Assembly (NCBI GenBank): GCA_963575645.1
Contig: OY754472.1
Span: 3,658,001-3,722,000 of the forward strand
Length of the DNA stretch: 64,000 nt
DNA from: Xanthostigma xanthostigma
Taxonomy: Eukaryota; Arthropoda; Insecta; Raphidioptera; Raphidiidae
Direction of reading: 5' to 3'
Part shown: positions 21,035-42,632 of the stretch, piece after piece
Layout of the letters: each line of letters opens with the position of its first letter
Numbering within the stretch: the first letter of the stretch is position 1
The notes under the pieces: model-generated
What the model was told of the DNA's origin: nothing
The model's input: the letters and a program-made list of their open reading frames with translations, nothing else
The model's database searches: none
Translations under genes and position numbers: made by a program

Positions 21035-21963
21035 TGAGGAATAATGCGTAGGACGTAGGTATTGTTCAAAAATTATCCACCCCGCTATTTCTTCGACAAC
21101 AATCAAAAATTAATTTCACATTGATTGTTTGTAATAAAAAATTAGTCGGTGTCTGCAAAAACATAAATTGATTTTCGTAACTGATTCTGTTTTGTGAACA
21201 CAAGAAGCCCAACGTGTCGTCCGCTTGTCCTGTTCCCATTGTCAGTCCACTCACGTAGGGCTTGTAGTGGTGCATTCTGTTTATAATCCATTATATGACA
21301 CCAGTCGAGAGAGAAAGAGAGAGAGAGACCCGACTTCCTGTCCGTTTAACGCCGTCTCTTACTGATTTTATACCGACTGGACTGTTCCACATCCGCAGGA
21401 ACAGATATTATTTTCAACGGACTTAAAAAAAGTGTTATTCGACACGTATTTTTTTACCCGACTACGGCGAAGCCAAAAGGAAGGGTTATGAGTTTAGTAG
21501 TCTATATGTATGTATGTTTGTATTTACGGATGTTCCACCGTAGCGCCTAAACTGTGCATCCGATTTTGATAAATAAGGTGTCAAGCGATTCGTTATTATG
21601 GCCCGGGTAACATAGGCTACATTTATTTTTGAATGTTAAGGTCCCAGGGGTGAGCAAATTGAAAACAAATAAAAAATAAGTTAAATAAAAAATAAACTAA
21701 AACCCGACTACTGAAAAGTATGAAATTATTCTCATCTTTGGATAGCCCTGGTCGTATGCCACCTCATATATACGAGTCCCCTCTAGATGTATATAGCGTG
21801 ATACACTTTGCCCTAGAGCTTATGATCGCTTACTACTGTTAAAATGTAATGTTTTGTTAGGGTAGGTGGCATATGTCCACGGCTATCCTCAGATGAGAAT
21901 ATTTTCTTGTTTCATACTTTTCAGTATAGTCGTGTTTTTGAACTTATTTTTTTTATATAATTA
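21035..21963. other. no gene; GA microsatellite and a helitron-like stretch
   Basis: A short (GA)n tract lies near 21308-21328. At 21450-21560 the text CCCGACTACGGCGAAGCC with GTTTGTATTTACGGATG resembles the degenerate body of a common insect repeat, but no ends were found. Confidence 0.3.
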
Positions 21964-22345
21964 TCGTCGTTGGTTCTGTAATCGCTCTTATGTGCATAGT
22001 TGGCAGATTTTACGTTTTTTAGATGAAAATATTCAGGAAACAGAGCTCTATACACTAGTAATACCTCCAAATTAATTTTACAGTAACCAACAAGGGGAAT
22101 TATATGTGAAAAGTTGTATCAAATAATTCCTCCCATGTGCCAATAAATTCGAAATTAACGTTAAATATTTTTTTAATAAAATACATCGTCTTAATTAAAC
22201 ACGTATAGTAAAGATAAGTATGAATTAGTAATATACCTCTGAAATTGCTAGTTCTTACCATCCATTGCTGAAATAACCACTTTTTGGCCTTTCCTGCAAA
22301 TTTTACTTTTTGCACATAAGAGGTATTACAGAACCAACGACGATA
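21964..22345. repeat. inverted pair with CGTCGTTGGTTCTGTAAT ends
   Basis: TCGTCGTTGGTTCTGTAATC and TCTTATGTGCA near 21963-21995 reappear inverted at 22307-22346. The 300-bp interior is AT-rich, so this may be an unrecognised MITE. Confidence 0.45.
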
Positions 22346-22357
22346 TATACTTAACAA

Positions 22358-22496
22358 GATTACGTCATAAAAATATTTAAAAGTTATTTTGTTTATGATA
22401 ATTTTTTAAAGTTAACAAAAAATGACAAATCTATAATTTTGTTAACTTTAAAAAATTATAATAAAATAATAACTTAAATATTTATATGACGTAATC
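22358..22496. repeat. 60-bp-arm hairpin, 16-nt loop
   Basis: Arms 22358-22420 and 22437-22496 (GATTACGTCATAAAAATATT at the base, AAAGTTAACAAAA at the tip) are nearly perfect complements around the loop AATGACAAATCTATAA. Part of one arm and the loop recur at 27455-27515, so it is a dispersed foldback element. Confidence 0.85.
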
Positions 22497-23978
22497 TAAA
22501 TCCCGTCTAAAATTATGTACAACAGTTTAAATTTTATCAGACGTAGTAAACGAAACAATTGACTGTTCAAAAGTGCAAAAGAAACGCTATTTTTTATATT
22601 TATTTTCTTCAATCGAAGTATAGTTGTATTGAGACGTATCAAGAGATGAGGTAATATGCAGGCAGTCAACTGAAACTTTGAAAGTTTTTAGATTCTTTAT
22701 TGAAATGTCTGTCACTATAAAAAAACACAGTAATTGCTGTAGATTTCAATACATACTCAACGCTTTTCAATCGACGACTGAAACTTTTAGATGTGTATGA
22801 AGGGTTCAAGGGAAAAACAATACATTAACTTCGAATATAATATAAAAACTGTCTCTTGCATTAACGTTTTAGACTATTATGTAGAATACTAACAGCTCGG
22901 CCCTGGGCTTCTCCCGGATTTGTAGATTAAAGATAGACGTACGTATGGGATATGTGCAAGGAGGCGGAGTTAAAAATTATCGATGCGTGCGTTTATTGTG
23001 AGCACTAGGGGAAATTTCAAACTCAAATTTTCCGTATGTCAGAGAGCAATGTTTATTAAACGTGCAAATAGTAATAATTTTATAAAGTTTTTTATTTAAG
23101 TACAAAGAAAACATGGGCAAACCTAGGCGATCTGCAGGAAATGCTTGTTGTGTTCTGGGCTGTTGCGCTGATGGCGATTTAAGTAAAATAAAGATCATTG
23201 GCGCCATAATTTGACGTTACGCTGTCAGTGTAAACAAATTAATTATTTATATATATTGTACGTCATAATCGATAAATAAATAATTCTCACGTACCTTTTA
23301 TGTTATGCTATTTATATAATGGTTTACAATCTGAATTTTATTGTATATAAAATAGCAGTTTTCCTTATTACATTTTTTTTTTTTGACGCATCATGGCCAA
23401 CTGAAGTTTTTGACTTATCACCATAGAAACATGTCGCGATTTCCATAAAAAGTGAGTTAAATAATTCTCTATTACGCACTGGCGGCGCTAGTATAGGCTT
23501 CGTGTACACAGCCTATACAGGCGGGTTTTGTATTTTATTAGTCGAATTAAGCATTTTTGTAAAATCGTGCTACCCTGTTTTAGCTCTGAACCCTCAATAA
23601 ATGTATGTAGGAATATAATCATTGACGTTGCCAACACTATGTTAAACGTATTTTCTATTCAAACAAATTTTCTCAAAGCATAAAACTCAGTTGCGCGAAT
23701 TTTTGTTTTTCTATTCAATTTTGAAATGTATTTTTTGTTTATATTCGGCGAGTAAATAAAATTACTTGATATGTAAATTTTTTCATAAAATAATGAAGTA
23801 CAATATTTACTTTTTTCATTTAACTAATGTAGTTTTTAAAAGTGAAGATTTTTCTTCCTATTTATATGTAAACGAGAATGGAAAAATATGAAAATAAAAA
23901 CTGATGGTCTTCACTTCAAGATTTTATTCTGCGGACATTTAACTTTTATTTTTATGATGTAAACTTTTAAATTTATTA
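22497..23978. other. no gene; degenerate Helitron end near 22890
   Basis: CAGCTCGGCCCTGGGC and TTCTCCCGG at 22892-22920 look like an eroded Helitron 3' terminus. The plus-strand frame at 23113 (MGKPRRSAGNACCVLGC) is too short to assign. Confidence 0.3.
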
Positions 23979-24053
23979 AAAAACCGGCCAAATACGAGTC
24001 GGGCTTGCGCATCGAAGATTCCGTACAAATATTTCAAAGTTCAATAGGAAGAT
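23979..24053 (+). repeat. CCGGCCAAATACGAGTCGG repeat head
   Basis: AAACCGGCCAAATACGAGTC and then GCGCATCGAAGATTCCGTAC match 11765-11818 (inverted), 49190-49225 (inverted) and 56883-56935. This is a very common lepidopteran dispersed motif. Here it leads directly into a hairpin. Confidence 0.65.
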
Positions 24054-24165
24054 AATTGAGAAAATTACAGGTGAAAAATAATTTTTCTTGAGTATTTCAT
24101 GAAAATCTCGTTCTGTCCATGAAATACTCAAGAAAAATTATTTTTTACCTGTAATTTTCTCAATT
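24054..24165. repeat. near-perfect hairpin, 48-bp stem and 16-nt loop
   Basis: Arms 24054-24101 and 24118-24165 (AATTGAGAAAATTACAGGTG at the base, AGTATTTCATG at the tip) differ at one position. The size is within the range of small-RNA precursors, but I see no proof of transcription. Confidence 0.9.
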
Positions 24166-25010
24166 AAAATTTGATTTTGATAGCTCGGTAACTTGACAGA
24201 TTTGCATTTTCCAAAAAAAAGTTTCCAACGAAAGTTGTATTTTTTTGCCAACTCAATCAAAATACGTCATAAAAAATGTGGGTTGCTATTTAAAAAATTC
24301 GACATACCCCCACCTCCCGAGAAGGGTTGGTGGTAAGGGGGATGATTGTGCCCCCGAACGATGTCCCTCTAACAACCGTAAAACTTTTATTGGAAACTTT
24401 TTTTAACCCTACTGTTTTCAAATATCTGCCTGGTAAGATTAAAATGGATCATTCTGTATATCGAAACCCGAAAAGCAAGTGCTAAACATTCAGCGTCAAC
24501 TCGGTTTTTTCCCAGTGTAAAAATAAAACGATATTAAACACCTATTTATGATGGCATTTTATAGCAATGTTTTACAATCAACTGGTGTCGGTTGACCTTA
24601 ATGATTCGGAGAGCCATTAGAAGCCAGTTAAATTAAACATCCTGTGTATTTTGTACTTCATCGTGTAGAGACGAAATCCATAAAGACGGCAACCAACACG
24701 TAGTAGATATAATGGGGATACCCTATATATACCTTCTGCATTCATACATTGTACATTGTACAATCGCAGATAGCAGGTACTGGGGGCTAGGGAGGACGAA
24801 ACTCGTTGATTTTTTGAATCGGGTATCTGATTAATGAAAAACAATAGGCATGATGACAGATTTTGAAATCTATAATGTAGGCACACGTCTATACTATTTC
24901 CGAAAAAAACATAATTTCAGCAATGCATTTTTATCTTTCTATTTTGAAGTAATCGCGAAAACGCTTGTGACGTCACGCCTCAGTAACAGCTGACATTAGA
25001 TGTTGTATTT

Positions 25011-25622
25011 GAGGAGCTTGTTTGCAAAACTTGACAAATCCATTTTAAATAAAAATCGAGTTATATATCGTACGTCAGTATTCAGCCCTAAACAAATCGG
25101 AATTTCTGGCTATTTTTAATCTAAACTCAACATATCATATACGAATTAAACGACGAAAATGGCGTTTGTGATCAAAAGTTGACAAATCCCGGATTTGTCA
25201 AGTTTTGATCACGAACGCTATTTTCGTCATTTAATTCGTAATATTATTATGGAATCTCTGATGTTTTATGTGTATTTAAATACTCATAAAACGTCAGAGG
25301 TTCCATAATAATATCACAAATTTCTATTTTAATATTGCTCCTTTCTTCCAAAACTTGACATATCCAACATATTTGTTTTCTTAACTTAACAAATCCATTG
25401 CTTGTTTTCAAAACTTGACAAAACCAAAAGTTTTTTATAAAAAAAAAATAACCATTTAAATTTAAAATTCCATCTTTGGCTTATTTTAACACAAAGACTC
25501 AGCGCTACCAAACGAGCCCAAAACAAAACAAAAGTTTATCAGTCCTTCGATGTGGCGGGTTTTTTACCTTTTTTGAGGATGTTGGTTCTTTGGATTTGTC
25601 AAGCTTTGCAAACGAGCTCCTC
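25011..25622. mobile_element. 612-bp MITE with reiterated TTGACAAATCC motif
   Basis: Terminal inverted repeats are GAGGAGCTTGTTTGCAAAAC and GAGGAGCTCGTTTGCAAAGC, both continuing TTGACAAATCCA. ATTT lies on both sides (25007-25010, 25623-25626). TTGACAAATCC or close variants occur about seven times in both orientations, as expected of transposase-binding sites. Two hairpins lie inside: 25140-25240 (apex CCCGGGATTT-like) and 25240-25315 (loop near TGTATTTAAATAC). Confidence 0.75.
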
Positions 25623-26419
25623 ATTTATGGGTGTAGAACCGTGGTTCAGAGGTATTTCTTAGAAAGGTATGTAAATCTAATTAAAGATATGATTTATATT
25701 AGGTATTTTCTTAAGAGTAGGTACTTAGTAGTAAAAATAGTAGCGGCCGCTCCTGATATCTGGCGGCCCTAGGCCCGGGTCTAGTCGGCCTTATTTGGAA
25801 ATCCGCCTCTGCTCTAAGCTTTCAAAAATCTAGACACCAGGTACTCACTCTCTCTTGGGTACTGGTCGTCAGTCACAGATAGTAGGTACTATAACTATAC
25901 CTACATGAAAGGACACAGTATAATGTTTTTTTTTTGTGGACAAGGGTTCTTTTTCGAGCGAAACGCGACATCCAGCAAGGGAGATATGGCATTCCGTAGG
26001 ACGTGTCCTGTTTACATTATTACCAGTAATTAACTCTGAATGTATGAATCATTTTTATAAATGCCCGGCCTGCCATGTTTGTTTTAGGAAAGGATTTTGT
26101 CTTTCTGTCCACATGCCTTGTTTGGTATTAGTTTAACCTCGAAATTAAATGGAGTCCATTAAATTGTTTTTATATAAATTTATATTATACAATAAACAGA
26201 CATATTCATACTAATTGTATAATCTCGGATTTAATAATAAATTATCATAACTGAAGTAGCTACAAAGCGAAGTGGCTTATGTCGACTTTTTGGCAAAAAA
26301 ATCTCTTAAACCACTGATCCTATTTTAAAATTTTTTCACCAATATTTAGAATGGACCTTGAGGGCAACTAAGAATATAATAACTTATCGATAAGCAGCTA
26401 AACTAAACATATGAAAGGT
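25623..26419 (+). other. no gene; Helitron-like fragment at 26245-26350
   Basis: CACCAATATTTAGAATGGAC at 26339-26358 and its upstream context match the inverted Helitron head at 43330-43429. The rest is unassigned. Confidence 0.35.
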
Positions 26420-26685
26420 AATCCCCACAAGCAAATGAACAAATTTCTTAGAATCTCGGGTACGCATGATGCCGACAACAAAGCAACAAAATAACAAACA
26501 AGTACTGTTTATTGCTTAATGATGACGTATTGTTGTCGGTATTTAGAGTGGGTGTGTCGTTATTTAGAGTGTATCATTGTATGAGCAACAAGGTAAACCG
26601 ACTATAGTTAAGTAATTTCGACGTTTTAAGGAGTTTGTCGTTATATCGAGTGACGGTAAATGGAGTTTACACTGTATATTAAGTT
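26420..26685 (+). mobile_element. pogo-like repeat, right part
   Basis: ATGCCGACAACAAAGCAAC, TTAGAGTGTATCATTGTATG and AGGTAAACCGACTA match 35230-35329 joined to 36119-36150. It ends GGAGTTTACACTGTA, the inverted form of TACAGTGTAAACTC at 34999. It supplies the empty site for the Harbinger-like insertion at 35330. Confidence 0.65.
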
Positions 26686-26814
26686 TTGAAGCAGTACATA
26701 TTTTAGCGTAACATTGAACTGTGAAACCATTACATCAAACTGAAATATGAAAGAACTTGACACTCCCTGTTGAAAAGTATTGATAAATTGGTCATCTGTA
26801 GATTATTTACAAGT

Positions 26815-27010
26815 TGAATGGTGAGCATGGGCTCGTGTCTTCCGGTTGTAGCGAGCCTCGACTGCAGAAACAGCTGCGAAATGTTTTATTGTCAGTTCCG
26901 GCAGTCGGTTTTGTGTAAGGTTTGTGTGTGGAAGCACTTCAAGATTTGTTACATTCCACGCTAAAGCTCGGTGGCCGCATTTGCGCGCTTTAAAGATAAC
27001 TGACTTTTAA
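26815..27010. promoter_or_regulatory. unique, GC-richer block
   Basis: Not shared with other parts of the window and richer in G+C than its surroundings, with CAGCTG and several CGG/CCG motifs. It has no open frame of note. A conserved regulatory element is possible but unproven. Confidence 0.15.
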
Positions 27011-27396
27011 CTTTATTCTGCTGTAACCTTACAAGCTGCATAATATAAATAAAATTAGGGTTGTAACATAACTAGCGCATGTCACTTTTTTTACTAAAAA
27101 TAATACAAAGTCACTAGGTACACAGAAACATATTATACAAGAAGTATTTATCTAACCGCTCTATAAATTTATATCCGAACTCAATGATTTATGTCTAGCC
27201 ACTGTGTGCACTTGCAGCGGCTTACACAGACTGTCTGACTGACTGTCTTACTGTGTTCTGATCTTTGAACTGCAGGCGCGGTGTATTTATATGCGTGGGG
27301 TAGGCTTCTGGCTTTTTCTCGAATGTTCGAAAACCCTTCTACCTGCTTCTACTAATACCAGTGGCGTATGGCGTGCGTAACAATAATGTAATATTA

Positions 27397-27515
27397 GTAT
27401 ATTACACCACTAGTGCCGAAAGTTTGATGTTCTTAAATTGTTTAATATTTAAAAGTTATTTATTTTGTTTGTTATAGTTTTTTAAAATTAACAAAAAATG
27501 ACAAATCTATATTTT
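27397..27515. repeat. ACACCAC repeat end plus half of the 22.36-kb foldback
   Basis: ATTACACCACTAGTGCCG is followed by AAAGTTTGATGTTCTT, then AAAAGTTATTTATTTTG and TTAACAAAAAATGACAAATC, the arm-loop junction of the hairpin at 22358. Confidence 0.55.
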
Positions 27516-28065
27516 GAAAATTTATAACGGCGTTAAAACCGCGTTGATTAGACGTCAATGACGTAGGTTCTCGCTTGAATGTGTAGAACAGTTCCAAAAT
27601 ACCTGTTACTAAAAATAACCTCCGTCACTCTAATGCGTACAAATAGTAGAATCTCAATTTCATATATCATGTCAGGAGATAATACTTATTCTTATATAAT
27701 ATAAAAAGCACTCGCGTTCACGGCCCTTTGTATGTGCTTCGTCGTGATTTATTTTGACAATAAAACTGTCCTTTATAAGATCGTTAATTTCTTCTATAAC
27801 TGTTGAAACATTTTTTTTATCCACATGTTATTTTTTGCTTTATGTTTCATAATATAACGAATCATTTCCAATCTGCTGGCTAAAAGTTTAATATAATTTA
27901 TCGTGTGTAGCTTCTTGTCATTTTTTTATGATTTGTTCAAAGTCTATTTAATCTTCTGTGAAGTGTGAAAAAGAAATTATTTTTCGTTGACTGATTGGCG
28001 TGGAAAAATCGTCGAAATGTGACACTCTACAAGCTATACGTCGATGGTTTGAAATTAAATTTTAA

Positions 28066-29525
28066 ATGGGTGCTCTACAGCTTACGCTCATTGAATTCCG
28101 AGTATTTTTTTTTGTAAACATTCTCAATTTCAAAAGTATATTAAAGACATCGATTTTTGCAATTTTTTCAAGGCATACCCTTTTAAAAAAATGTGATTAT
28201 AGTCGAAAACCGAAATCTTTCGGAACGTTGGCAAAATCATCATCCTTATAGAAAAAAAAACACGCTGAATCTAATGAACACAAACAAACGTCTGTATGTC
28301 TTTCGGTTTAGAAGTTATTTGCGATTATAGTTTTCAAAAAATCATATGAAAGCTTCGAATGGCCGTAGTTTCCAAATTAAAAGAGATATAGAATTTTGCT
28401 TATGCTCATTGAATTCAGCGTAATTTTTTCTGTACACATTCTCAATTTCAAAGGTATATTAAAGAAATCGATTTTTGCAATTTTTTCAAAGCATACCCCT
28501 TTAAAAAAATGCGACTTTGGACGAAAACCGAAATCTTTCGGAACGTTGGCAAAATCATCATCCTTATAGAAAAAAAAACACGCTGAATCTAATGAACACA
28601 AACAAACGTCTGTATGTCTTTCGGTTTAGAAGTTATTTGCGATTATAGTTTTCAAAAAATCATATGAAAGCTTCGAATGGCCGTAGTTTCCAAATTAAAA
28701 GAGATATAGAATTTTGCTTATGTTCATTGAATTCAGCGTAATTTTTTCTGTACACATTCTCAATTTCAAAGGTATATTAAAGAAATCGATTTTTGCAATT
28801 TTTTCAAAGCATACCCCTTTAAAAAAATGCGACTTTGGACGAAAACCGAAATCTTTCGAAACTTTGGAAAAATCATAATGCTTAGGTATAGAAAAAAGCA
28901 CACTATCTAATGAGCTCAAACAAACGTCTGTATGTCTTTCGGTTTAGAAGTTATTTGCGATTATAGTTTTCAAAAAATCATATGAAAGCTTCGAATGGCC
29001 GTAGTTTCCAAATTAAAAGAGATATAGAATTTTGCTTATGCTCATTGAATTCAGCGTAATTTTTTCTGTACACATTCTCAATTTCAAAGGTATATTAAAG
29101 AAATCGATTTTTGCAATTTTTTCAAAGCATACCCCTTTAAAAAAATGCGACTTTGGACGAAAACCGAAATCTTTCGAAACTTTGGAAAAATCATAATGCT
29201 TATAGAAAAAAGCACACTATCTAATGAGCTCAAACAAACGTCTGTATGTCTTTTGGTTTAGAAATTATTTGCGATTATAGTTTTCAGAAAATCATATGAA
29301 AGCTTCGAATGGCCGTTATAGTTTCCAAATTAAAAGAGATATAGAATTTTGCTTACGCTCATTGAATTCAGCGTATTTTTTTCTGTAAACATTCTCAATT
29401 TCAAAAGCATATTAAAAAAATCGATTTTTGTAATTTTTTCAAGGCATACACCCCTTTAAAAAAATGCGATTTTTGACGAAAACTGAAATCGTTCGGAATT
29501 TCGAATAAAATAATTTTTGGACAAA
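28066..29525. repeat. 318-bp tandem repeat, about 4.6 copies
   Basis: CTCATTGAATTC landmarks at 28087, 28405, 28723, 29041 and 29358 give a period of 317-318 bp. Units carry ATCGATTTTTGCAATTTTTTC, GACGAAAACCGAAATCTTTCG and GAAGTTATTTGCGATTATAG. Internal copies are almost identical and the outer ones more diverged, the usual pattern of satellite-like expansion by unequal exchange. The two 74-codon minus frames are repeated by-products. Confidence 0.9.
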
Positions 29526-29820
29526 AGATTGATATTTAATAAATAATGTGAACATCGTTCCTAACAAACGTGTTTATAGATAGAGCACTGTATACATCAT
29601 TCTACCTGTACAGCTCGTTCTGCCTCCCTAACAAACAAACAAACAAACGCATTGTTTGGCGTACGTTAGTCTCACAGCTAGTATTGTTTGGTTAATTCGT
29701 GTTACATTAACCAGTTTATTGTTGTTTTGATTATTGTTAACACAATGCGTTAAATATCTACCTGTAAGTAGTAGGAGAGCTGACAGAAGTTTTGAAGCAG
29801 CGTGAAAATTTATGTTAAAA

Positions 29821-30262
29821 CCGCGGCACACGAGGCTAGAAACACTGCTTGGACTTCTGCTGGCCAGTAGGCTGGGTACGAAGCTGGAAATGACGTCACG
29901 GCGGGCTCGCCTGCTAACTCACAAGATAGGTTTAAAAAATTGGAACAGGGACTATTCTTCTTGCTAGGTTCGCTGCTAGGTATGAGCAAGAACCAATCAG
30001 GGAAGAAGTATCTTCTCACGTAGGCGCCCACAAGCCAACATAGCGTCATTCTGCTCAGTCAGACAACAGACACGTTTTTCTCTGTGTTTATATTTGAACT
30101 GTCACTGCGCGCGTACCGAATCTACCTTGCAGAGCAAGCTTGAAAAGACGTCTCGTGTGAAGCGAGCACATAACAGCAATCAAGAAAACCAGCGCTAGAA
30201 AACTAGTAGGCAAATCTAGTAAGGAATCTAGCAGCGTTTTCCTGCGTCGTGTGCAGCGGCCT
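29821..30262 (+). mobile_element. CACACGAGGC MITE, full copy A of an inverted dimer
   Basis: It starts CGCGGCACACGAGGCTAG and ends CGTGTGCAGCGGCC. Internal landmarks are CTTCTGCTGGCC, GAAATGACGTCAC, GCAAGAACCAATCAGGG, AACTGTCACTGCGCGCG and CCAGCGCTAGAAAACTAG. Same family and orientation as 38125-38556. Confidence 0.75.
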
Positions 30263-30264
30263 TT

Positions 30265-30632
30265 TGTTTTCTAGCGCTGGTTTTCTTGATTGTTTTTATA
30301 TGTGCTCGCTTCACACGAGACGTCTTTTCAAGCTTGTTTTGTAGGTACCTAGATTCGGTGCGCGCGCAGTGATAGAACGGTAACAAAAGTGGACGTTTAT
30401 TGTCTCTGAACAGAACTATGACGCCGTGTTGGTTTGTGGGCGTTTGTTCATGTCGCCCACGTGACACGATACTGTTCCCTGATTGGTTCTTGCTTAGAGC
30501 AATTAGCCCCTAATCTAATTTTAAAATTCATTTTGTGAGCTAGCAGGCAGTGACATCATTTCTAGCCTCGTAGCCAGCCTGCCGGACAGCAGAAGTCCCA
30601 GCAGTGTTTCTAGCCTCGTGTGCAACGGCCTT
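30265..30632 (-). mobile_element. CACACGAGGC MITE, copy B of the inverted dimer
   Basis: Reads the same family in reverse, from TTTTCTAGCGCTGGTTTTCTT to CTAGCCTCGTGTGCAACGGCC. It abuts copy A with only a few bases between, so the pair is a large foldback of about 370-bp arms. Its inner end lacks the terminal 40 bp. Confidence 0.75.
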
Positions 30633-31528
30633 TACACAAATTTTCACGCTGCCTTAAGAGCCCGTTTGCCGATCTCAGAGGGGAAGCTGTATTTTGCGGC
30701 GTGTGGTGAAGAAACATTTTGAAACATTCCATTCATAATAGTACAACTAATATATTGTGGTCTATGAGAATTGAATGCTCTCTCTCTATCTTTCACACAT
30801 ATGAGAAGGATTGACAAAGAGAACCGAATTATCATATGCCTATACTACATGTATACATACATCAACATGTGTTGGTACACCAACACACACGCATAGTATA
30901 CAGCAGGTATAAAATAGGGATGTGCTATATTCATTTTATATCCAGAATTACAAAATATTACAACATAATTTATCGGCAAAGAAATATTTTACAAAAAATA
31001 GATTGATATTAAATGTCACATAAAATGGAAAAAAAATGTATATTCATAATAATAATTATAATACATTAGTTTTTTTACGGCATACCCGAAAATGTTTGAT
31101 GGCTCTTGGACTATAGTGTGCTTGCATATAATTTTGTCTACTTAGAATGCTATTGTTGCCATAATATCCTAGGGCACTCTGCGTATATATACCTAGATAA
31201 TGTTCAAGGGACACGAACAAATGCTACCCGTCTCCTGCTTTTGACAGATACACATAGATTGTGTCAACTGGCGACGTGAGCATCTTTAATTATTCACGCC
31301 GCTGTCACGAAAGTCGTCGCTCTAGAAAAATTGTTTAAACGTCGCGAGAAAAAGAATGACCTTGTAAAAAGTTTGTTTGAACGGTTCGACGGCGACGGAT
31401 TCGCGATTACTAAAGGTTGTTAGCCTAGTACTTTATTAGCAGCATTAAATATTTAAAAATTTCGCGCTCTTGTTTATTACCGACTAGTAACCCATGCAAC
31501 CATTCTGAATTTATATTTTTCTATATTT
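30633..31528. other. no gene; unique GC-richer block at 31200-31440
   Basis: The 31200-31440 stretch is CpG-rich, unshared with repeats and contains TAATTATTCACG and several GTCGCG/CGACG motifs just upstream of the recursive splice site. It may be a regulatory element. Confidence 0.2.
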
Positions 31529-31560
31529 TACTAACAATCATTTCTTTGTTTCAGGTAAGC
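31529..31560 (+). promoter_or_regulatory. recursive splice site (zero-length exon)
   Basis: TACTAAC (31529-31535) is the ideal branch-point sequence. It is followed by a pyrimidine-rich ATTTCTTTGTTT, CAG (31552-31554) and directly GTAAGC (31555-31560). An acceptor fused to a donor with a branch adenosine 20 nt upstream is the defining layout of ratcheting points in long insect introns. After the first splicing step the regenerated 5' splice site would be used again. It implies + strand transcription through this region. Confidence 0.55.
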
Positions 31561-31785
31561 CTTTGAGCTTTGTTACATCATTATGCAAGGTTGGTTAACT
31601 TTTTGTCTTTTAAATGGCTACTTATTTTTAACTTCCGCTTAAAAAAAACAAAATTTTTCTTCAAAAAAATTGGGAAGTTATTGTTTTCACCCCGATTTTT
31701 GAAAATCGAGTTTTCGTCAGATCTCGACATTTTGAGGTCCTGGGAAGCTATTCTGACTATTTTGGCAATGATGTCCGAAGGGCTT

Positions 31786-31825
31786 GGGGTGTGTGTGTGT
31801 GTGTGTGTGGGGGGGGGGGGTGTGT
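31786..31825. repeat. (GT)n microsatellite with a G12 run
   Basis: About eleven GT units are followed by twelve G and TGTG. It is likely to be length-polymorphic and a slippage-prone spot. Confidence 0.9.
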
Positions 31826-31857
31826 TGCTGTGTGTGCATGTATAATTGTAATCCTCT

Positions 31858-32250
31858 TATTACTTTTGAACGGAGTGTCCGATTGAAACGCGATTTGCGG
31901 CATCTGACGTGACTTCGCTGAACTTAGATTTTCTGAAAATTTGGAATGATTCGACCCAATATATTTTTAGAAATCTAAAAAATACAAGTTAGAAAATTTT
32001 TAGAAATTTGTTTTCTTGCAAAATTTTCTAAACTACTCAACTGATTAATTATTAAAATGTAATCAGCTCTTCTCCTTAAAAAACTACGTCGATTTCCGCA
32101 AACCGCATCACAATCGATTCATTTGTTCACGAGATATCGTGAACGAAAAATTCGAAAAAAAGTGTTTTATTAAAATCACTCGTAAAATTCTTATCAGATC
32201 GATTTTTTTGTAATAAATTACTTTCTTAAGTTAAAAAACTGCGTCGCACC
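31858..32250 (+). repeat. second copy of the GAACGGAGTGTCCG repeat
   Basis: Co-linear with 13365-13740: GAACGGAGTGTCCGATTGAA, GCGGCATCTGACGTGA, TTTCCGCAAACCGCATCA, GTTCACGAGATATCGTGAAC. It holds one unit only, without the tandem expansion. Confidence 0.75.
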
Positions 32251-32855
32251 CTGAACAACGACTTTCTGTTTAACCCTGTGTAGAAAATTGAAGATGGATG
32301 TACAAAGGTAAAAAGATATTACTAATGTTTTTCTTGTGTCAGCAGTTCTGTAAATCTAGATATTATATTATGTCGTATCAAAGTAAATAAATGCAAAGCA
32401 CAAAGCTGGCATTTCTTTATTGAAATGTTTTTAATTGTGTGGAGATTTTTTTTTTGTAAATTAAAACCTCGTATTCTTTTTACTGAAACATTCTACAAAA
32501 GAATAATATATTTTTGTCCCGTAATGAGTTACAGAAACCGTTTTTATATGAATGATATAATTTATTAAAAACGATCATATTTATTAGAAACGATATAACA
32601 AAATAATATGACAAGTTAAACAAGAATTTATTGTTTAAATAAAAGACGAGTGTGGCGTGTGCTTTAGATCACACGACTGAAGTAAAACTTCTTCCTGCCA
32701 TAATTTGTTATTATTCACCCGAAAATTCACTAAATATGAATTTTAAAATGAATTTACAATTTTATTCACTTTAAACGTAGAATATTACATAAAGATAATG
32801 AAAACAAAAGTAATACGTTGCAACGTTGTCACTGGCAAGTAAAGAGTACTGCTTA
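32251..32855. other. no gene recognised
   Basis: AT-rich unique sequence without shared motifs. Confidence 0.3.
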
Positions 32856-33213
32856 TCTATACTAATATATAAAGCTGAAGAGTTTGTTTGTTTGTGTGTT
32901 TATTTGTTTGGTTGAACGCGCTAACTCTGGAACTGCTGGTTCTAATTGAAAAATAAATTTGTTGGATAGCCCATTTATCGAGGAAGGCTATAGGTTCTAT
33001 AATATCACGCTACGACCAATAGGAGCGAAGCATCAATGAAAAATGTTGCAAAATGTAACTCAAAATTTGTCCGTCCGACAAAAACTTTTGAACGGTAACT
33101 CCGATCATCATGAAATTTAGAAACAACATTCATTTTGGTAATCTAAGATGCGTGCTCATGTCCCTCCCTTCCCTATTCGTTCTTTTGCACCCGGGTGAAA
33201 CCGGGCGGAACTT
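32856..33213 (+). mobile_element. Lep1-type non-autonomous Helitron, copy 2
   Basis: It starts A|TCTATACTAATATATAAAG and matches 19594-19970 throughout. It ends CCCGGGTGAAACCGGGCGG with the terminal CTAG eroded. Relative to copy 1 it has a short TTGCAAAATG insertion near 33045 and small deletions. Confidence 0.85.
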
Positions 33214-33996
33214 TTATCTACCTTGGCGGGACCGCTATTTTATAATAAAAAAGTACGCAAAGGCATTTTAAATCAAATTTTAACAACTACCAGCCGAAAC
33301 GATAAAATTACTATGCAAAGTAGCATATGTGTATGTTCTGTTCGATATCGAACATTGAATGTAAATAATTCATATCATTGATATTCTAAAAGCGTCTTTC
33401 ACTGAAATTTGAATTATATTTTTGTGCTACAAACTTGTGAATGTTTTATGAGAGCAATTTTTACGAAAATTTATTTTGAATGAAATTCAATTCGGATGAT
33501 ATTTGTATTCCTTTAGCTCTGATTCAGGATTTCAAATTGATTTTCATAATATCGTTCTTTTTTTCGGAACAGTTCTAGTTTAGTTCACATAATACCGCCG
33601 TATAAAGGGTCGTTCACACTAATTGTCAAGCATCAACCTGCATAGTTCACATGTTCATTTTTTATGGATTCCAGTCCTCCTTCACCGAAAATTATGATCA
33701 TGGTGTCATTCGAATCGGAATGACATCTAAAAACTTTTTGAAAAAATTGAAACGGGGGACTAAAAAATTGCAAAAGTTTGAAACATTTTAGTAAAAAAAG
33801 AGGGGTTTGGTTTTTTATGAATATCTCAAAAACCATTGCAGATATTTAAAACCACAAAAAAGATTCAGAAAGAGCAGAGAATTTCCTACAAAAAAGTCCT
33901 ATCTCCCGAAACTCTACCACCAATATTTCTAATTTTAATTTAGAGTTGAAAATAGGGCTAAACATTTTGTGTTCTCTTTTCCAAATACAGGGTACA
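33214..33996. other. no gene recognised
   Basis: Unique sequence. The open frames here are short and match nothing. Confidence 0.3.
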
Positions 33997-34315
33997 ACAC
34001 GCGTCACGAATCTAAAAGGCTCGGAAGTTAGATGCGAATGCGGGCTTGCGCTTGTACAGTCTGTTGAAAAACTACAAGCTCGCAACTCAACCAAATTAAA
34101 ATAACAATAACAACTTGACAATAGCGTACTCGATTGTACTTTAAAGCAGGAAAGCGACAAGTGACAAAGGCAACGAGCGATCACGACCAATCACCGACGA
34201 GCGCACGTTCCGTGCAGGTAGCTGGGAGATGGAGGGAGTCTCAACGGCTCTAAAATGTGCCTTTGCGACGCTGTTTGTGACTAACTTCCGAACCTTTCAA
34301 ATCCGTGGCGCGTAT
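33997..34315 (-). mobile_element. GCGCGCCACGAATC MITE, copy 1
   Basis: Ends CGCGTCACGAATCTAAAAGG (left) and, inverted, CGCGCCACGGATTTGAAAGG (right) are terminal inverted repeats of about 37 bp. The interior has GCACGTTCCGTGCAGGTAGC and CTTTAAAGCAGGAAAGCGAC. It is inverted relative to copy 2 at 40708. The long minus frame (114 codons) is carried by the repeat and is not a gene. Confidence 0.75.
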
Positions 34316-34539
34316 TATAAACTATATATAGCGAAATTTAAGGGATCGGGTATTTTATTGCGTTATAAAGATTTCTCGTTAAAGATTAAAAGAAACAATA
34401 TAATTTTACGAATAAGTGTATTTAATTTTGACTAAATTAAGTGTAAAAAATAACCTTGTTTTTTTTTTCCAGTGCCAGTATTTTAATTCTCTCTTTTTAC
34501 AACAAACAAACACATTTCCAAGAATTCCATTGTTGGGGT

Positions 34540-34700
34540 CTAAATAATGATGTATTGTTTCGCTATTGAGATTTGAGAGTGATTGTTACATTTTAATATA
34601 TGGGTAACAATGTAAACCTAACAAATCTTTGTAATTTCTACGTTTTAAGGAGTTTTTTGTTAAATAGAAGTTCGCTATATAGAGTTTACACTGTACTTAA
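34540..34700 (+). mobile_element. pogo-like repeat fragment
   Basis: CGTTTTAAGGAGTTTTTTG and GCTATATAGAGTTTACACTG correspond to the right end at 26620-26685. Confidence 0.5.
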
Positions 34701-35000
34701 ATTTTGCCGTCAACTCTTCAATAAAATAATTTGAAAGTCAATGAATAAAATCTCAATTTATTGTATTAACTATCAAATTAAACGCCATTTTACGATCGTA
34801 TTGTAAAACGAAAGTGTACTAGCAGCGTTAATGGCATTAAAATTTTAATTTGAAAATTTATTAGTGTACTAAAATGCTAACTATACGAACGATAGCTTGT
34901 AAAAATGTTCGAGATTTGGCCACTTTGAACAATAAATTTATAGACTTCGGGGGGAGAACGGGATAAAAGATGAAGGAATAACGATAATATTATGTATATA

Positions 35001-36155
35001 CAGTGTAAACTCTATGCAGCGAAACAGGACACTCAAGGACTTTGTGGCGTTATTGAGAGTTGTCGTTAAACGGAAAGAAATAATAATCCATTAATATTCT
35101 TTTGCTATAATATGCATTTACTCATAATACATAAAGCTACTGACCAACAAACATTCATACTATATCACAAATTACAACAGCTGAGCGAAACATATGAAAA
35201 ATAATCCCAACAAACAAAAGAACGAATTTCTAGAATTTTCGGTACTCGTGATGCCGACAACAAAGCAACAAAATTGTTTAATGACATATTGTTGTCGTTA
35301 TTTAGAGTGTATCATTGTATGAGCAATAATAGGCCCCACTCACGATCACACTTCATGCAACAGTTCAGTGTTCAAACTTATAGTTCAGTGAAGCATGATA
35401 GTGTGTGGGACAAATAAACACTGAAACCAACACTGAAGTCAAGCATGAACTCATCAAATGCATCTTGATTTTTGAACGACTTCAGTGTTCAGTGTTCAAG
35501 TAAACTGTTGTGTGTGTGGGTGTTTTTCAGTTCAGTTTTTGGAGTTCTGTGTTTTGTACAACCAGAAGCCAAAAATCTCAATGTTGCTGCCTTTCTTGTG
35601 CAGAAATAGATTTTCACATATTTGTGTCCTGGTTCTTAATAAATAGGGTAACTAATTCCAGTAAATAATTGTAAGTTAATTCATTCATTCGTAAATAATT
35701 ATTGCAATCAAGCGGCTCAAGATGTAATTCATTAATCAAATAAACATGACTTCTTGAATCACGCATTTCTAACCAATTTTTCACCCATATTCTTCTTTTT
35801 TTTTTCTTATTTCTCTGTTTTAAATACAATCCCATAGCTCTGAACAGCCAATCCTCACCATTTAAATTACTCAGTTAGTTCTTATTAATGAACTATACTC
35901 TATAGTATAATATTATAGTGTGTATATAATATAATATATCTTATGTATCTATACTCGACGAGTGTATGCCAACAACTGAACCAAATTGAACACAAAAAAT
36001 TTAAAAAACTGAGCAGTTTGCATGAACTGTGTGTGGTGCCAGTCAGTCTTTCGATTAATCTGTCCAACTTCACTGAACACTGAACTGTGGCATGAAGTTT
36101 GATCGTGAGTGGGGCCTATAAGGTAAGCCAACTAGAGTGAAGTAATCTATACATT
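35001..36155 (+). mobile_element. pogo-like repeat split by a Harbinger-like MITE
   Basis: It begins TA|CAGTGTAAACTCTATG and continues with ATGCCGACAACAAAGCAAC and AGAGTGTATCATTGTATGAG up to 35329. It resumes at 36119 with AAGGTAAGCCAAC and fades near 36155. The ends resemble pogo/Tigger-type termini. No transposase frame is present. Confidence 0.55.
35330..36118. mobile_element. Harbinger-like MITE with TAA target duplication
   Basis: Both ends begin TAGGCCCCACTCACGATCA, and the inverted repeats continue ACTTCATGC, ACAGTTCAGTGTTCA for over 45 bp. TAA flanks both sides (35327-35329, 36119-36121). The related sequence at 26575 reads GAGCAACAAGGTAA without the insert, a paralogous empty site that supports the 3-bp duplication. 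A 3-bp TWA target and GGCC-type ends suit PIF/Harbinger. Internal short TTCAGTGTTCA motifs recur on both strands. Confidence 0.8.
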
Positions 36156-36629
36156 CTAATAATATAGTCAACAATTTGGTATGTTTTGAAAATATTAAGG
36201 AAAATAAATTTTACACGTTTTTTGAACAATTATACTTATAATCACATTTCTCACGATATCTGCATAGCTAGGAGTGTTTTATTTAAATATTCATAGCGGC
36301 AATCATTTAATTTTATTCAAATTTCAAACGTGCATGCCTTATTATGATAAACATGTTTTATTTTGAAAATATAGCTCATGTATATTTCATATCATTGTAT
36401 TTTTTCATATTCTAGGTACAGTGTGTCCGGACAGCGTGTGCACGTAGAAATCTAATTACAGTAGTTTTTAGCGTTGAGATGAAATGTGCGGATGAGAGTG
36501 CGCTATAACAAAAAATATTTGTGTGATAGAGAAATGATTAACAAAACTTTAAGTTATTAAAAATATGTACACAACTGTATTGTGATTCATAGTTAGACAG
36601 ATGGCCAAGGTCAATGGTCAAGGAACACT

Positions 36630-37116
36630 GGGTGCAAAAATAATATAAATAACGAAAAACAAACGAATTCTAAAACAACAATAACAACACTAAACCACTA
36701 TGTACACAGAATATTTGTATCACTGTTCTCTATTTATTTAGAACATTTATTTATCTCATTCGCGCGCTATTTACTGTCACTGACTGCCCGACTGACTCGC
36801 TACGCGCTGTTTATATACCTCTCCAGTCGCTTTCTGGAACATTCTACGACATTCTGAAAGCTTCGACATTATTCTATGCGATTCCGATAACAATGGGCGC
36901 CAACAAACCGTGCATAGTTGTCTATGCGATTCTGACAACAATACGAGTTTTGTTGTCTGCGCGGCTTTGACAACAACGCGAGTATTGTTGTCTGCGCGGC
37001 CCTGACAACAACGCAAGTATTGTTGTCTGCACGACTCTGACAACAATGCGAGTATTGTTGTCGGAACCGTATAGACAACAATGCACTGTCGCCGCCTCCA
37101 GTAGTGTCCCGTTACA
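36630..37116 (-). mobile_element. partial LTR (solo), with a 35-bp minisatellite
   Basis: On the minus strand it begins TGTAACGGGACAC and contains GGTATATAAACAGCGCG (TATA region), then CAGTCAGTGACAG and TTGTTGTTTTAGAATTCG, as in the LTRs at 39.5 and 57.9 kb. The 3' end is lost. The part upstream of TATA (36915-37075) holds about five 35-bp units, each with TTGTTGTC and GACAACAA in inverted order. No primer-binding site or coding sequence follows, so it is a solo remnant. Confidence 0.7.
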
Positions 37117-37424
37117 ATATTAATATATTCGTCCTAACCACGAGCCGCTACTGGTTTTTGGTTGTCGACTGAAAATCTGATGTGGAATTTTGTCGGCGAA
37201 GTAAAAGTTTAACAATCTGCATGTTGCAAAGATTGTAAAAGTCATATATGAAGACGTTATGTATTTTATTTCATGAAACATGAAACAGGAAAACATAGGG
37301 GACACTTTGATGTGTCTCTTGTATGCAGTTAAATATTTTGATGTTTTTTTTTTTTCATAAACTGCAGTAAGTGCATAAGTTTACGTATTACTAGGTCGCC
37401 TTCTTAAGTTCTTATACATATTAT

Positions 37425-38012
37425 TGTTACACAGTCCCCGTTGGGACGACAAAGAATTTCGTGAGACAACAATCGGCTCATCATTCTAACAATGTTGTGG
37501 AACAACAATTGGCTTGTTTGTTCAAACAATAACAATATGCGTAGGTAAAAAGGCTTTGTTGCCAAATTCCAGACAACAATGAATGCAAGAAAAAGAAAGA
37601 ACTATCCAGCGCATATATACATCGAGGGATAGCTCAGTAGACAGACAGTCATACAGTGTGCTTCATCGAGTTAACAATCGACAAATAGTTGTGACATAAA
37701 TTGACAGTCAGTACCGTGAACAGTTACTTAAATAGATAAATGAACTGTGTAAATAAACAGTGCGCGAAATAAATAGTTTAACATAAATAATCTCGTGTAT
37801 ATAGTTAATAAATAAGTGTGCTAAATAAACTTTGGTGTACATAAATAGTGATTTGTATTCATTATTACTTATTCTTTTATTTTATTAGTTAGAATTGTTG
37901 CTTTGTTTCTGTTACGTTATAGAGAAGTACTTTTGTTTGTTTAACTGTTTTGTTAACGTTTCACTATTATAAATAAATATTTTATACCACGGATTAGAAC
38001 AGTTTTGTTACA
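37425..38012 (+). mobile_element. solo LTR of a related family
   Basis: It begins TGTTACACAGTCCCCG and ends AGTTTTGTTACA. It has CAACAAT-rich 5' sequence, CATATATACATCG as a TATA region, then CAGACAGTCATACAGTG, GAGAAGTACTTTTGTTTG and a close, all in the same order as the 39.5-kb LTR. Its sequence is more diverged, so it is a separate subfamily. Flanking target duplication is not clear. Confidence 0.65.
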
Positions 38013-38124
38013 ATATAATAGAAACGGTAATAATATATTCATGTTAAAGTAAAATGTCTATACCGAATGCGCAATAATAATAAATGTCTAAATTTAAAAT
38101 GTTTGTCTTCAACTATTCCCTAAA

Positions 38125-38556
38125 GGCCGCTGCACACGAGGCTAGAAACACTGCTTGGACTTCTGCTGGCCGGTAGGCTGGGTATGAATCTGGAAATGAC
38201 GTCACTGCGGGCTCGCCTACTAGCTTACAAGATAGGTAGGTTTTAAAATTAGAACAGTGGCTATTTTCCTTGCTTGGTCCGCTGCTAGGCATGAGCAAAA
38301 AAGCAGTATCTTGTCACGTGAACAACTTGAACAAACGCCCACAAACTAACACGGCGTCATTCTGCGCAGAGTAAGACAACAGACACGTTTTGCTCTGTAT
38401 TTATATTTGAACTGTCACTGCGCGCACATTAGATTTATTCACAAAACTAGCTTAAAAAGATGTCTCGTGAGAAGCGAGGACACGACAGCAATAAAAAAAA
38501 CCAGCGCTAGAAAACTAGTAGACAAACCTAGGAATCTAGCCTCGTGTGCAGCTGCC
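38125..38556 (+). mobile_element. CACACGAGGC MITE, full copy
   Basis: It begins GGCCGCTGCACACGAGGC and ends GCCTCGTGTGCAGCTGCC, terminal inverted repeats of about 20 bp, with TAAA to the left and TTAA to the right. The body matches copy A at 29.8 kb. The TTAA seen here and at 3281 and 39210 could mean a piggyBac-like target, which remains unproven. Confidence 0.75.
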
Positions 38557-39167
38557 TTAAAATCGCATATTGAAGTGAACCCGGTATATTCAGTAAGTAG
38601 GGTAAGTACAAGTAGGTACGTGATACTAAACCGCTTTGCTAGTGACATCTGCCGTTTGCAGACAGCACTAAACACGCTGTGCGGATTGCATCTCGCAAGT
38701 CGCTGCACAAAGTAAGTTAATAAAAGAAGTTCAGTAATAATATGTACAAGTATATATTGTTAGAAAAGCTTGCAATGTTATTAAGTATGATATTTACATT
38801 GCATTTAAAGCTTCTAGACTGTATAATAATCTTCGTATTATTAAGTAGCAGTGCTACGTTTGTCAACAGAACTATATAATGCGATCATTTGTTATAAATG
38901 GGACCAAAATGCAAAATCGTTTATGTTGAATTTTTGGTATCTTCAAGTAGATACGTTTTTTCTCGATTTTGTTTAAGGACGTTGGGTAGGCACTTGTGCG
39001 GGGGACGTGGTGCGGGGAAAACTCTATGCTGATACACAAGCCTCCTAAGTTTATATAGGGTGTGTGTCATAAATACCTGGGCGGTCAATTATTTCGGATA
39101 CTGCACGTTGAATTAAAAAAAAAAAAAAAAACACCTGTCCGGTATTTTCAAAACTAAACTTGACTAG

Positions 39168-39212
39168 CAAGGAATCTAGCTGCAAAACCAGCCTCGTGTG
39201 CAGCAATCTTAA
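39168..39212 (+). mobile_element. terminal fragment of the CACACGAGGC MITE family
   Basis: AGCAAGGAATCTAGCTGC, AAAACCAGCCTCGTGTGCAG and CAATCTTAA are the last 45 bp of the family. A poly-A tract precedes it. Confidence 0.5.
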
Positions 39213-39540
39213 ACCTAAATTATGTAATATATGTGCTATAAGCTGCGAAATGTGGCGGTTTGCAGTACTTCTTCCAGTTGTATTCCTTGGAGAGAAAACA
39301 AGGAAACAACATTCTTGGAGAGCGTGTTATTTGTAACTTAAATGTAGGTATATATATACGGATATCTGGGAATTATATTTAGGTTGGGACGAACTTTCCT
39401 GTATGTCTAGAGCAGGCTTGGTCAACCCCTCGGCCTGGCAAATTATTTTTTGTGGACCGTCAGATTATTTTCACTCAAACACGTCGAAGGCCAAAAAGGG
39501 ATGTTTAACAAGTCTGCTAGTTCTTGCAGTGAAGGAATTT

Positions 39541-39877
39541 TGGTGCAGTGCATTGTTATCAGAACTACATAGAAGAATGCCGAAGCTTCTAGAACGTCGA
39601 AGAATGTTCCAGAAGACGGCTGAAGAATATATATAAACAGCGCTAGCGTGGAAAGCAGGGCAGTCAGTCAGAAGTCAGTATCAGTGACAATGAACAGTGC
39701 GCGACAAATAAATAAAAGATATACTCGTTGTTCAGTGTTGTTATTGTTGCTTTAGAATTCGTTTGTTTTTCATTATTTTATTTTTCATTATTATTAGAGA
39801 AGTACTTTTTAGTTTGTTTTTGTAAATAAATAGTTTTTTAAGCACCAACGAAGACTAGTTTTGTCAGTTTCGTTACA
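39541..39877 (+). mobile_element. partial solo LTR
   Basis: GTGCATTGTTATCAGAAC, GAATGCCGAAGCTTCTAGAA, ATATATATAAACAGCGC (TATA), GTCAGTATCAGTGACAATG, GAGAAGTACTTTTTAGTTTG and the end GTCAGTTTCGTTACA match the minus-strand LTRs. The first part is missing. Confidence 0.7.
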
Positions 39878-40436
39878 ATATCTTCTCACGATTTTTCGTA
39901 TTGAATTATCCTTTATTTTATTTTAACTATTGTTGGATATCTAAGATTTCATTATTCTAATGTGGTTTAGATACAGAAACGGTTTATCGTTTGTTATTTT
40001 TGTGTGTTTCGAAACTTAGCCTCCAGGGAAATGAGTCGGAAAATGCATATCGAGATGAAAAAGAATCAATCTGTCATGTTGACAGGAAACTGGGAAGTAC
40101 ATAATTAAACAAATGTGTTTCTTTTGTGGAAAAACGTGATTTGAGTGATGTTTCCGGATTGGTGATTACTAAAACAAAGTGGGATTATAAAGAGGATCTG
40201 AAATTGATTTTGACGTGTAGTTTTTGATATGCGCGCAGTAAAAAAGACATCAGTTGAAAACAAATGAATTAAAAAAACTGCATTTTAATCTCTTTTCTTG
40301 CATATCTTGATCTCCTCCATATAAAATAATAAACTTTATTTCCAAAAAATTGAAGCTCCTTTAAAAAAGAGTTACTAAGAAGCGTAAAATAACAAAGTTT
40401 TGAGGTCGATTATTATCACGTTTTATGAACTTTGAT

Positions 40437-40585
40437 TAACGTCTGAATAGAACTCTTCAAATAAATGAAATATATAGACCAATTTTTTCAGACTATATAT
40501 TAATAAAAATTATAATTCAATAGATGACGTTTCGGTACGGTTTTGGACTTCTTCAGAAATAATCTAAAATATATAAAAATTAATT
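40437..40585 (-). repeat. CTGAAGA-GAAACGT repeat, copy 1
   Basis: On the minus strand CTGAAGAAGTCC is followed by ACCGTACCGAAACGTCATC, and the plus strand carries GAACTCTTCAAATAAATGAA and GACCAATTTTTTCAGAC. Copy 2 is at 61128-61272. The CTGAAGA...GAAAC spacing recalls the hammerhead-ribozyme core, but the flanking stems are not obvious. Confidence 0.55.
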
Positions 40586-40707
40586 AGTATCATACTTATT
40601 TTCTAATAGAATTAAGTTTAAATTTGTTTTATTAACGAAATATTAATGAAAAATGTTTAATTAATATTTCATTAAAAAATAAATTCAAACTTAAGTACCT
40701 AGATATA

Positions 40708-41028
40708 ATGCGCGCCACGAATCTAAAAGGTTCTGAAGTTAGTCCAAAACAGCGTCGCAAAGGCGCACATTTTAGAGCAGTTGAGGCTCCCACCACCTCC
40801 CAGCTACTTGCACGGAACGTGCGCTCGTCGGTGATTGGCCGAGATCGCTCGTTGCCTTTGTCACTTGTCGCTTTCCTGCTTTAAAGTACAGTCGAGTACG
40901 CTATTGTCAAGTTGTTATTGTTACTTTAGTTTTGTTGACATGCGAGTTTGTAGTTTTTCAACAGACTGTACAAGCGCAAGCCTGCATTTGCATTTAACTT
41001 CCGAGCCTTTTAGATTTGTGGCGCGTAT
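40708..41028 (+). mobile_element. GCGCGCCACGAATC MITE, copy 2
   Basis: Ends ATGCGCGCCACGAATCTAAA and, inverted, ATACGCGCCACAAATCTAAA are terminal inverted repeats. TA lies on both sides (40706-40707, 41029-41030). It is the inverted counterpart of 33997-34315. Confidence 0.8.
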
Positions 41029-41651
41029 TATACTAATTAATTTTTATATTTTTTACCCTATCGAATAAAAAAATAATCATCCAAATAGGTTCATAACCGG
41101 CGAAGATATCGACGGACAGACATACAAAACGAAAAATATCCTACAAAATAAAATAACGATTTCATCCCTCGTCGAATTCTAGATGAAAAAGGTGTTTCGA
41201 CTTGACATACTAAACATAAAGTTCCGCTTTTTTTTTATTTCAGCGGAAATACAAAACGAATTAAAAAGAAAACTTCACCTGGCTATAAAAGTCAGATTTT
41301 TCACTTTACAAGGAATCTGTTTTAACTGGAGAGAATTTATCCTTCGACGAAGGCAATAAAAAAAGTTTAATTAAAGTCATATAACTGAGCTTCCGCTAGG
41401 TCCTTGTACTACGATTAGTTTCGAGTGTTTGTCCCGTTTTATGTTTCGACTTAATATAATCGTCCTTAATACCCATACAAAAGGACAGGAAACAATTTCG
41501 AATTATAATTGCAATTGTTACCAATGAAAGGATTTTAAAGGTAGCGCCGGAAATGGATTTTATGACTTCGAGTAGTATAGTACTATCAAACTATAGTCAC
41601 CCAAAGACGTAAAATATAAATGGATCTAGCATTCCCTATCCATACCAATAT

Positions 41652-42310
41652 TATAAATTCCAGCCAATTGGGCGACGGGGCCATTCCAACTTCAAAATGT
41701 TGACATATGATATAGTATAATAAAAAAATAAAATTTCTAATATCGCGTGAGGTGACGCGGGTAATGGCTAGTGTTCAATATGCCATTTGCTATTCTTTGC
41801 CATGGTTACCTACATAATATGTTCCATGTCATGTAAAAATTAATCAAAGCATGCTTAACTAGTTTATTTCTGACAGATCTACAAAACAAAAGAACAGCTA
41901 TATATACCAAATATATTAGTTTAGTGTTTGCTGAAGATGAGAGCATAGCTCCCGAAATGTACATCCGCTAAGAAACTGTTGCGGTAAGAAGTAACTTTTC
42001 TTTATTTTTTTATAAAAGAACAGCTGATTTTTTTTTATTATTCAAAATATTTCCGAAACTATAAAGTTTAGAAAAGAATATTTTAACGAAAATTTCTTAA
42101 AAAAATAAATAGAATAATAATACGTTATGAAAAGTATACCATTATTATATAAAAAACAACGTTATAACATATATATCTCTTCTGCGCATGCGCCGATTTC
42201 CCCCAAAACAATAGGGCTTTTCATATTTGCATACCAAACATCCTCTCACAATTTGGTTTCAATCCACACATCCGTTTTTCCAAAAATATGTTTTTTGGAT
42301 TCGGGGGACA
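41652..42310 (-). repeat. GCCAATTGGGCGACGG repeat, copy 1 (Helitron-like)
   Basis: Co-linear with 59030-59510: CCAGCCAATTGGGCGACGGG, CACGGTTACCTACATAATATG-like block, GTCATGTAAAAAT, ATTTCTGACAGAT, GCGCATGCGCCGATT. The fuller 59-kb copy ends with a Helitron-type TC terminus on the minus strand, so I assign both to that class tentatively. Confidence 0.6.
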
Positions 42311-42498
42311 TCAGAACGAAAAAATATTGTAAAATTTTGAAAAGTGAATTTTTACCTAAACTGGTACCATTTGCGTAATAGAGGTCAGTTTGGGAGTTTG
42401 GATGTTGGATGTAATTCAAGTCTCTCAACTTTATGCCCGTGTGATGCATATTATTTCAGCTGTCATTCGTGTTTTTACGTATGACGTATGAAGAAAAA

Positions 42499-42632
42499 TA
42501 GTATACACCACACTGGCCAAAAGTTTGATATTCTTGCACTGCGCGCCAGAATGCCCAAGGCGAATGGGTGTAATATACTATTTCTTTATAGCCGGTCGAA
42601 AGTACTTACTTTCGACCGAAGTATGAAGAAAA
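42499..42632. repeat. ACACCAC / CTTCATAC repeat assembly
   Basis: AGTATACACCACACTGGCC and GTGTAATATACTATTTC bracket TGCACTGCGCGCCAGAATGCC. GGTCGAAAGTACTTACTTTC and GACCGAAGTATGAAG follow, as at 12492-12905. Confidence 0.5.

Follow-up and report, generated by a model that had tools for sequence, protein, structure and literature searches.

In agreement with the initial annotation, which had read it as a recursive splice site on the plus strand, the segment 31529-31560 is very likely a ratchet point, a recursive splice site inside an intron, through which a giant intron would be removed in two steps. It is one of hundreds of strand-coherent fused acceptor-donor sites in a 623-Mb genome of 28 contigs. 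Positions refer to the window, i.e. the whole stretch of 64,000 nt that was analysed (1..64000, corresponding to C9:3658001-3722000). Recursive splice sites themselves are known; judged from the DNA, the new element here appears to be a G at position -7 that marks these sites.

Architecture and rarity of the fused site

Acceptor and donor are juxtaposed at a single AG|GT (CAG|GTAAGC, 18.8 bits). A branch element and a pyrimidine-rich tract lie upstream of the junction, and the site is located within a long predicted intron on the gene's own strand (+; Table 1). Direct reading of the letters confirmed every element that had been described before, namely TACTAAC, the pyrimidine-rich stretch, CAG|GTAAGC and a branch adenosine at -20. 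The tract is indeed rich in pyrimidines, but its one exception, the G at -7, had not been mentioned before and is the informative base.

Table 1. Features of the fused site and of its predicted host intron. Plain numbers are window positions.
Feature	Position	Strand	Basis or remark
Branch element TACTAAC	31529-31535	+	Letters read directly; branch A 31534, 20 nt 5' of junction
Pyrimidine tract TTTCTTTGTTT	31541-31551	+	10/11 bases pyrimidine
Tract plus acceptor TTTCTTTGTTTCAG	31541-31554	+	Direct reading, matrix score
15-mer core TTTGTTTCAG|GTAAG	31545-31559	+	263 exact genome copies
G at -7	31548	+	Class-specific base inside pyrimidine tract
Acceptor CAG	31552-31554	+	Junction 31554|31555
Fused donor GTAAGC	31555-31560	+	12.2 bits including preceding CAG
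Candidate cryptic RS-exon, 35 nt	31555-31589	+	Weak evidence
Candidate RS-exon donor GTTGGT	31590-31595	+	5.6 bits; weak evidence
Predicted intron, 123,082 nt	C9:3647156-3770237	+	Exon A/exon B model from sequence; whole window inside
Kazal-type inhibitor domain PF00050	L032:6469-6678 = C9:3758469-3758678	-	Pfam, E 7.3e-13

All bit scores rest on self-written splice-site weight matrices. With these matrices, the fused site has the highest score on both strands of the window (runner-up 14.7 bits) and keeps this rank across 284 kb (runner-up 15.5 bits; expected number 0.057). Sixty sequences of 128 kb each were simulated with a third-order Markov model; two of them contained an equally strong site, neither with TACTAAC upstream. 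The matrix score alone is thus compatible with chance in one window, so that context is needed to decide. Within the window CAGGTAAG is present twice, at 31552 (+) and 4528 (-), and TACTAAC seven times; a CTRAY branch element together with YAGGTRAG is found once, at the site described here.

A genome search with 31400-31700 gave 1,154 candidate places, 40 of which were scored; 39 of them were other places. None of the 39 starts before query base 212, which corresponds to window position 31611; hence, an abundant repeat begins about 57-72 nt past the junction. The preceding part, 31400-31610 with the junction included, had no match elsewhere in the genome among the places scored.

Predicted host intron and proposed splicing steps

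The assumption that the window is located inside a very long plus-strand intron agrees with a gene model built from the sequence. Exon A (C9:3646860-3647155, +) is the best internal exon in a scan of both strands of 284 kb, with a score of 69.2 compared to 37.8 for the runner-up, which is a piece of a copia element. Its donor, CGCAAG|GTGAGT, has its junction at C9:3647155|3647156, 10.8 kb 5' of the window. Exon B opens at C9:3770238 after ttttgatttcag, 48.2 kb 3' of the window, and encodes YYPEGGWGWIVCGAGFLAHL. Since the coding frame is in phase 1 at the end of exon A, and the two missing bases come from exon B, the two exons join in frame. The fused site splits the predicted intron at 34% of its length. 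A donor at 1891 had been suggested as the upstream partner; it was dropped after the identification of exon A, whose donor is the likely partner instead.

In the first of two proposed steps, the CAG ending at 31554 would serve as acceptor for the exon A donor, which lies 42,399 nt upstream. Removal of segment 1 would place the intronic GTAAGC immediately after exon A and thereby recreate a donor with the sequence CGCAAG|GTAAGC. In the second step, this recreated donor would be spliced to the exon B acceptor, which lies 80,683 nt downstream, and 0 nt would remain in the mRNA. The acceptor of the fused site would probably be recognised first by exon definition of a short downstream cryptic exon, the weak donor of which would lose to GTAAGC. 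This order is proposed for the studied locus because the steps are known from fly ratchet points, as far as the accessible parts of the respective papers describe them (PMC8605326, PMC6110457).

Apart from the studied site, the plus strand of the predicted intron contains three weaker fused sites of at least 11 bits (14.2, 12.1 and 11.1), which amounts to four, compared to 15 on the minus strand (best 15.1). Some of the minus-strand sites derive from one repeat family. This surplus of weak fused sites on the minus strand counts against the ratchet reading.

The host is probably a plus-strand SLC16 (monocarboxylate transporter)-like gene. The resemblance of exon B to monocarboxylate transporters is weak but consistent. 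In a comparison of exon B with PDB sequences, the best 8 of 11 matches were MCT2, MCT8 or MCT10 (E 0.01-0.06), and exon B also matches profile positions 8-37 of TIGR00892 (E 0.015). Further plus-strand matches of this profile are located at C9:3785967-3786230 (positions 76-163, E 0.0013) and C9:3791168-3791479 (positions 318-423, E 1.7e-4). The name of the host is only probable, because exon B is absent from the 74 matches of the TIGR00892 genome profile search and because this unspecific profile also has matches among prokaryotes, in 10 of 14 control genomes. No Pfam match was obtained for exon B. For exon A, nothing significant was found in Pfam or the PDB, and a literature text search with four peptide pieces retrieved no paper. 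A possible relation of exon A to teneurins gave no match to PF06484; this null result is uninformative, since 0 of 14 controls matched. A nested antisense gene with a Kazal-type domain (Table 1) is located inside the predicted host intron, outside the window.

A genome-wide class of fused cores

The studied site is a member of a genome-wide class of several hundred near-identical fused cores. In the whole genome the 15-mer TTTGTTTCAGGTAAG has 263 exact copies, compared to 2 for the reversed control and to 2.7 expected from composition, i.e. an approximately 100-fold excess. The GTGAG form of the core has 174 copies (reversed control, 1). A pattern combining branch element and fused site with T required at -7 gave 67 matches versus 16 for the reversed pattern; it is unable to match the studied site, which has G at this position. 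With any base allowed at -7, the numbers were 206 and 79, and by eye about half of the 100 matches listed (of 206) read GTTTYAG|GTAAG, like the studied site.

Strand relations were analysed on contigs C1-C3, for which the set of sites is complete (98 + 68 = 166 sites of the GTAAG and GTGAG forms). Of 62 neighbouring pairs not more than 200 kb apart, 61 are on the same strand, with a median spacing of 61 kb. Random placement on the same contigs yielded a mean of 24.2 and a maximum of 38 such pairs in 2,000 trials, and none of 20,000 strand shuffles reached 61 same-strand pairs. Neighbours of different form (GTAAG-GTGAG) agree in strand in 24 of 24 cases. Among all 89 GTAAGC sites, the studied copy included, 17 pairs agree and one disagrees, a value of 17 being reached in 2 of 20,000 shuffles. 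Same-strand runs with members tens of kb apart would be expected from successive ratchet points in giant introns.

Two local arrangements were observed in addition. At C1:9960609-10217731 (+), six cores form a run on one strand, with GTAAG and GTGAG forms interleaved at a spacing of about 39-61 kb; a single gene with very long introns may underlie this run. At C7:39514290 and C7:39514492 (-), two cores are only 202 nt apart; either the site is doubled there, or the sequence has been duplicated locally.

For a comparison of the flanks, every fifth of the first 100 GTAAG sites (of 263) was taken with 500 b each (n = 20). What these sister sites have in common is mainly the stretch between about -20 and +6. 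In addition, some longer but weak alignments cross the core, reaching 78 nt at 72%, and short matches elsewhere are present in two pairs. Donors of at least 7 bits are present in the bin +35..+70 at 10 of 20 sister sites, all at +36..+65, compared to 0 to 2 sites in each of eight other downstream bins and none in two upstream bins, the bins having been set after the donor positions had been seen. The best RS-exon donor of the studied copy is AAG|GTTGGT at +35 with 5.6 bits, and this weakness counts against the ratchet reading. Between -50 and -16, CTAAY is found in 7 and YTRAY in 14 of 20 sister sites, whereas a control stretch gave 2 and 9 of 20, respectively; hence, the branch element is no sharp mark of the class.

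A guanine at position -7

The core variants with a base other than G at -7 (TTTHTTTCAGGTAAG) together have 60 copies (reversed control, 5), compared to the 263 with G. Shifting the G to -8, which leaves the composition unchanged, reduces the number to 8. Among acceptor-like 10-mers genome-wide, TTTGTTTCAG is present 6,006 times (reversed, 4,279) and TTTHTTTCAG 34,810 times (reversed, 21,431). GTAAG follows directly in 263 of the 6,006 with G at -7 and in 60 of the 34,810 with A, C or T. Expressed as shares, G accounts for about 10% of the acceptor-like excess over the control (fused sites removed) versus 83% in fused sites, and the odds ratio between fused sites and generic acceptor-like 10-mers is 26.5. 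Consequently, the G at -7 marks fused sites and does not reflect a general preference of acceptors.

A literature text search, with the founding papers Burnette 2005, Duff 2015 and Joseph 2018 outside its scope, found no report of the -7 feature, which is not proof of absence. The 15-mer core was in none of the papers among the matches listed.

A dedicated factor may bind the G; alternatively, the G may fine-tune the usual binding of acceptors. Tentatively, and with more doubt than confidence, we suggest that the ratchet points of this lineage could be a separately specified class, with a fixed U3-G-U3-CAG core whose purine at exactly -7, mostly missing from ordinary acceptors, would be read by such a factor. 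Candidate readers would presumably be a U2AF variant or an ELAV/Hu-type protein binding UUUGUUU. If a dedicated factor does read the core, the acceptor would be marked for splicing into and then out again, and a dedicated code, not just any strong AG|GT, would direct the cutting of hundreds of giant introns. Because the distinction at -7 is visible in the sequence, a cis code is testable by a single-base change; the comparison is also open to RNA pull-down with UUUGUUUCAG versus UUUUUUUCAG as baits. Moreover, the core allows the listing of ratchet points in an unannotated genome, which would make very long introns predictable from DNA alone.

Alternative explanations

A dispersed transposon bearing its own fused splice site would account for a core that is dispersed in hundreds of copies, and a different repeat family of the region does bear a fused AG|GTA. 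However, 31400-31610 has no match elsewhere in the genome search, and the 20 sister sites are alike mainly in the short segment around the junction. Transposon insertions would be expected in both orientations, whereas neighbouring sites are on the same strand in 61 of 62 pairs. We regard this origin as extremely improbable. A chance match within non-functional intron sequence is also highly improbable, although equal scores did arise in the simulated sequences (2/60) and weak fused sites are plentiful in large introns. The 15-mer exceeds the expectation from composition about 100-fold and its copies are strand-coherent; taken together, these two properties mean that few of the copies can be due to chance.

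It is similarly hard to credit that 31555-31589 is an ordinary or alternative 35-nt exon which starts with GTAAGC by chance. The donor-like AAG|GTTGGT at +35 and one open frame would fit such an exon, but the donor is weak, inclusion would shift the frame and lead to a stop in exon B, and the fused core is common to hundreds of sites. Inclusion of the segment as an RS-exon in some transcripts is compatible with the ratchet reading.

Other features of the region

Scans of the window for tRNA genes and Rfam families found none. A repeat whose sequence includes an acceptor-donor-like TTTGTTCTTCAG|GTA is present in 12 copies with not more than 6 substitutions on both strands of 324 kb, one of them without AG|GT; two copies are in the window (20967-21001 and 45344-45378, both on the minus strand) and the others in the flanks. 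At 7229-8230 a tandem array comprises 6.3 copies of a 160-bp unit, in which we take the stretch GGTTCGAGCCCC to resemble a tRNA T-arm; ARAGORN found no tRNA in this array. A 318-bp tandem array of 4.5 copies with an adjoining imperfect palindrome occupies 28080-29498 and 29797-30652, the palindrome matching its own reverse complement at 70.6%. Outside the window, at C9:3494874-3498761, a copia-type element has an open frame of 1,296 aa, with gag, integrase and reverse transcriptase domains in the scanned part. This element looks recent.

Comparison with known recursive splicing

Human recursive splicing is alike in that long introns are removed stepwise via internal sites; it differs in a use described as stochastic and in a CG-rich feature close to the 5' splice site upstream (PMC13105047). 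What sets recursive apart from ordinary splice sites in human introns is called unknown there, and the accessible part of this paper makes no mention of a fixed core like that of the class described here.

For mosquito, bee and beetle, RP-sites have been predicted within large introns (PMC2773006). According to the available portion of that study, the ratio of fused sites between introns longer than 50 kb and their complement is 4.0 in bee, 8.0 in beetle and 21.7 in fly, a sense-strand enrichment in several insects and the point of likeness to the present case. The study differs in its human-derived scoring matrix, and the same portion does not mention a signature at -7. The consensus quoted there for ratchet points is (y)nncag|gtaagt, whereas in the class described here G is strongly preferred at -7; the contrast is with this quoted consensus and not with the fly logo itself.

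Fly ratchet segments usually measure about 9-15 kb in the accessible text (PMC6110457). The segments of 42 and 81 kb proposed here are far above this range, which counts against the ratchet reading. In other respects, the Drosophila intronic ratchet points are alike as far as the available parts of the sources describe them, with an acceptor and a donor juxtaposed at AG|GT in sense orientation within a long intron (PMC8605326, PMC6110457). Cryptic RS-exons of flies comprise about 50 nt in the part of the source at hand, and the short cryptic downstream donor at 10 of 20 sampled sites makes the present class similar to them (PMC8605326).
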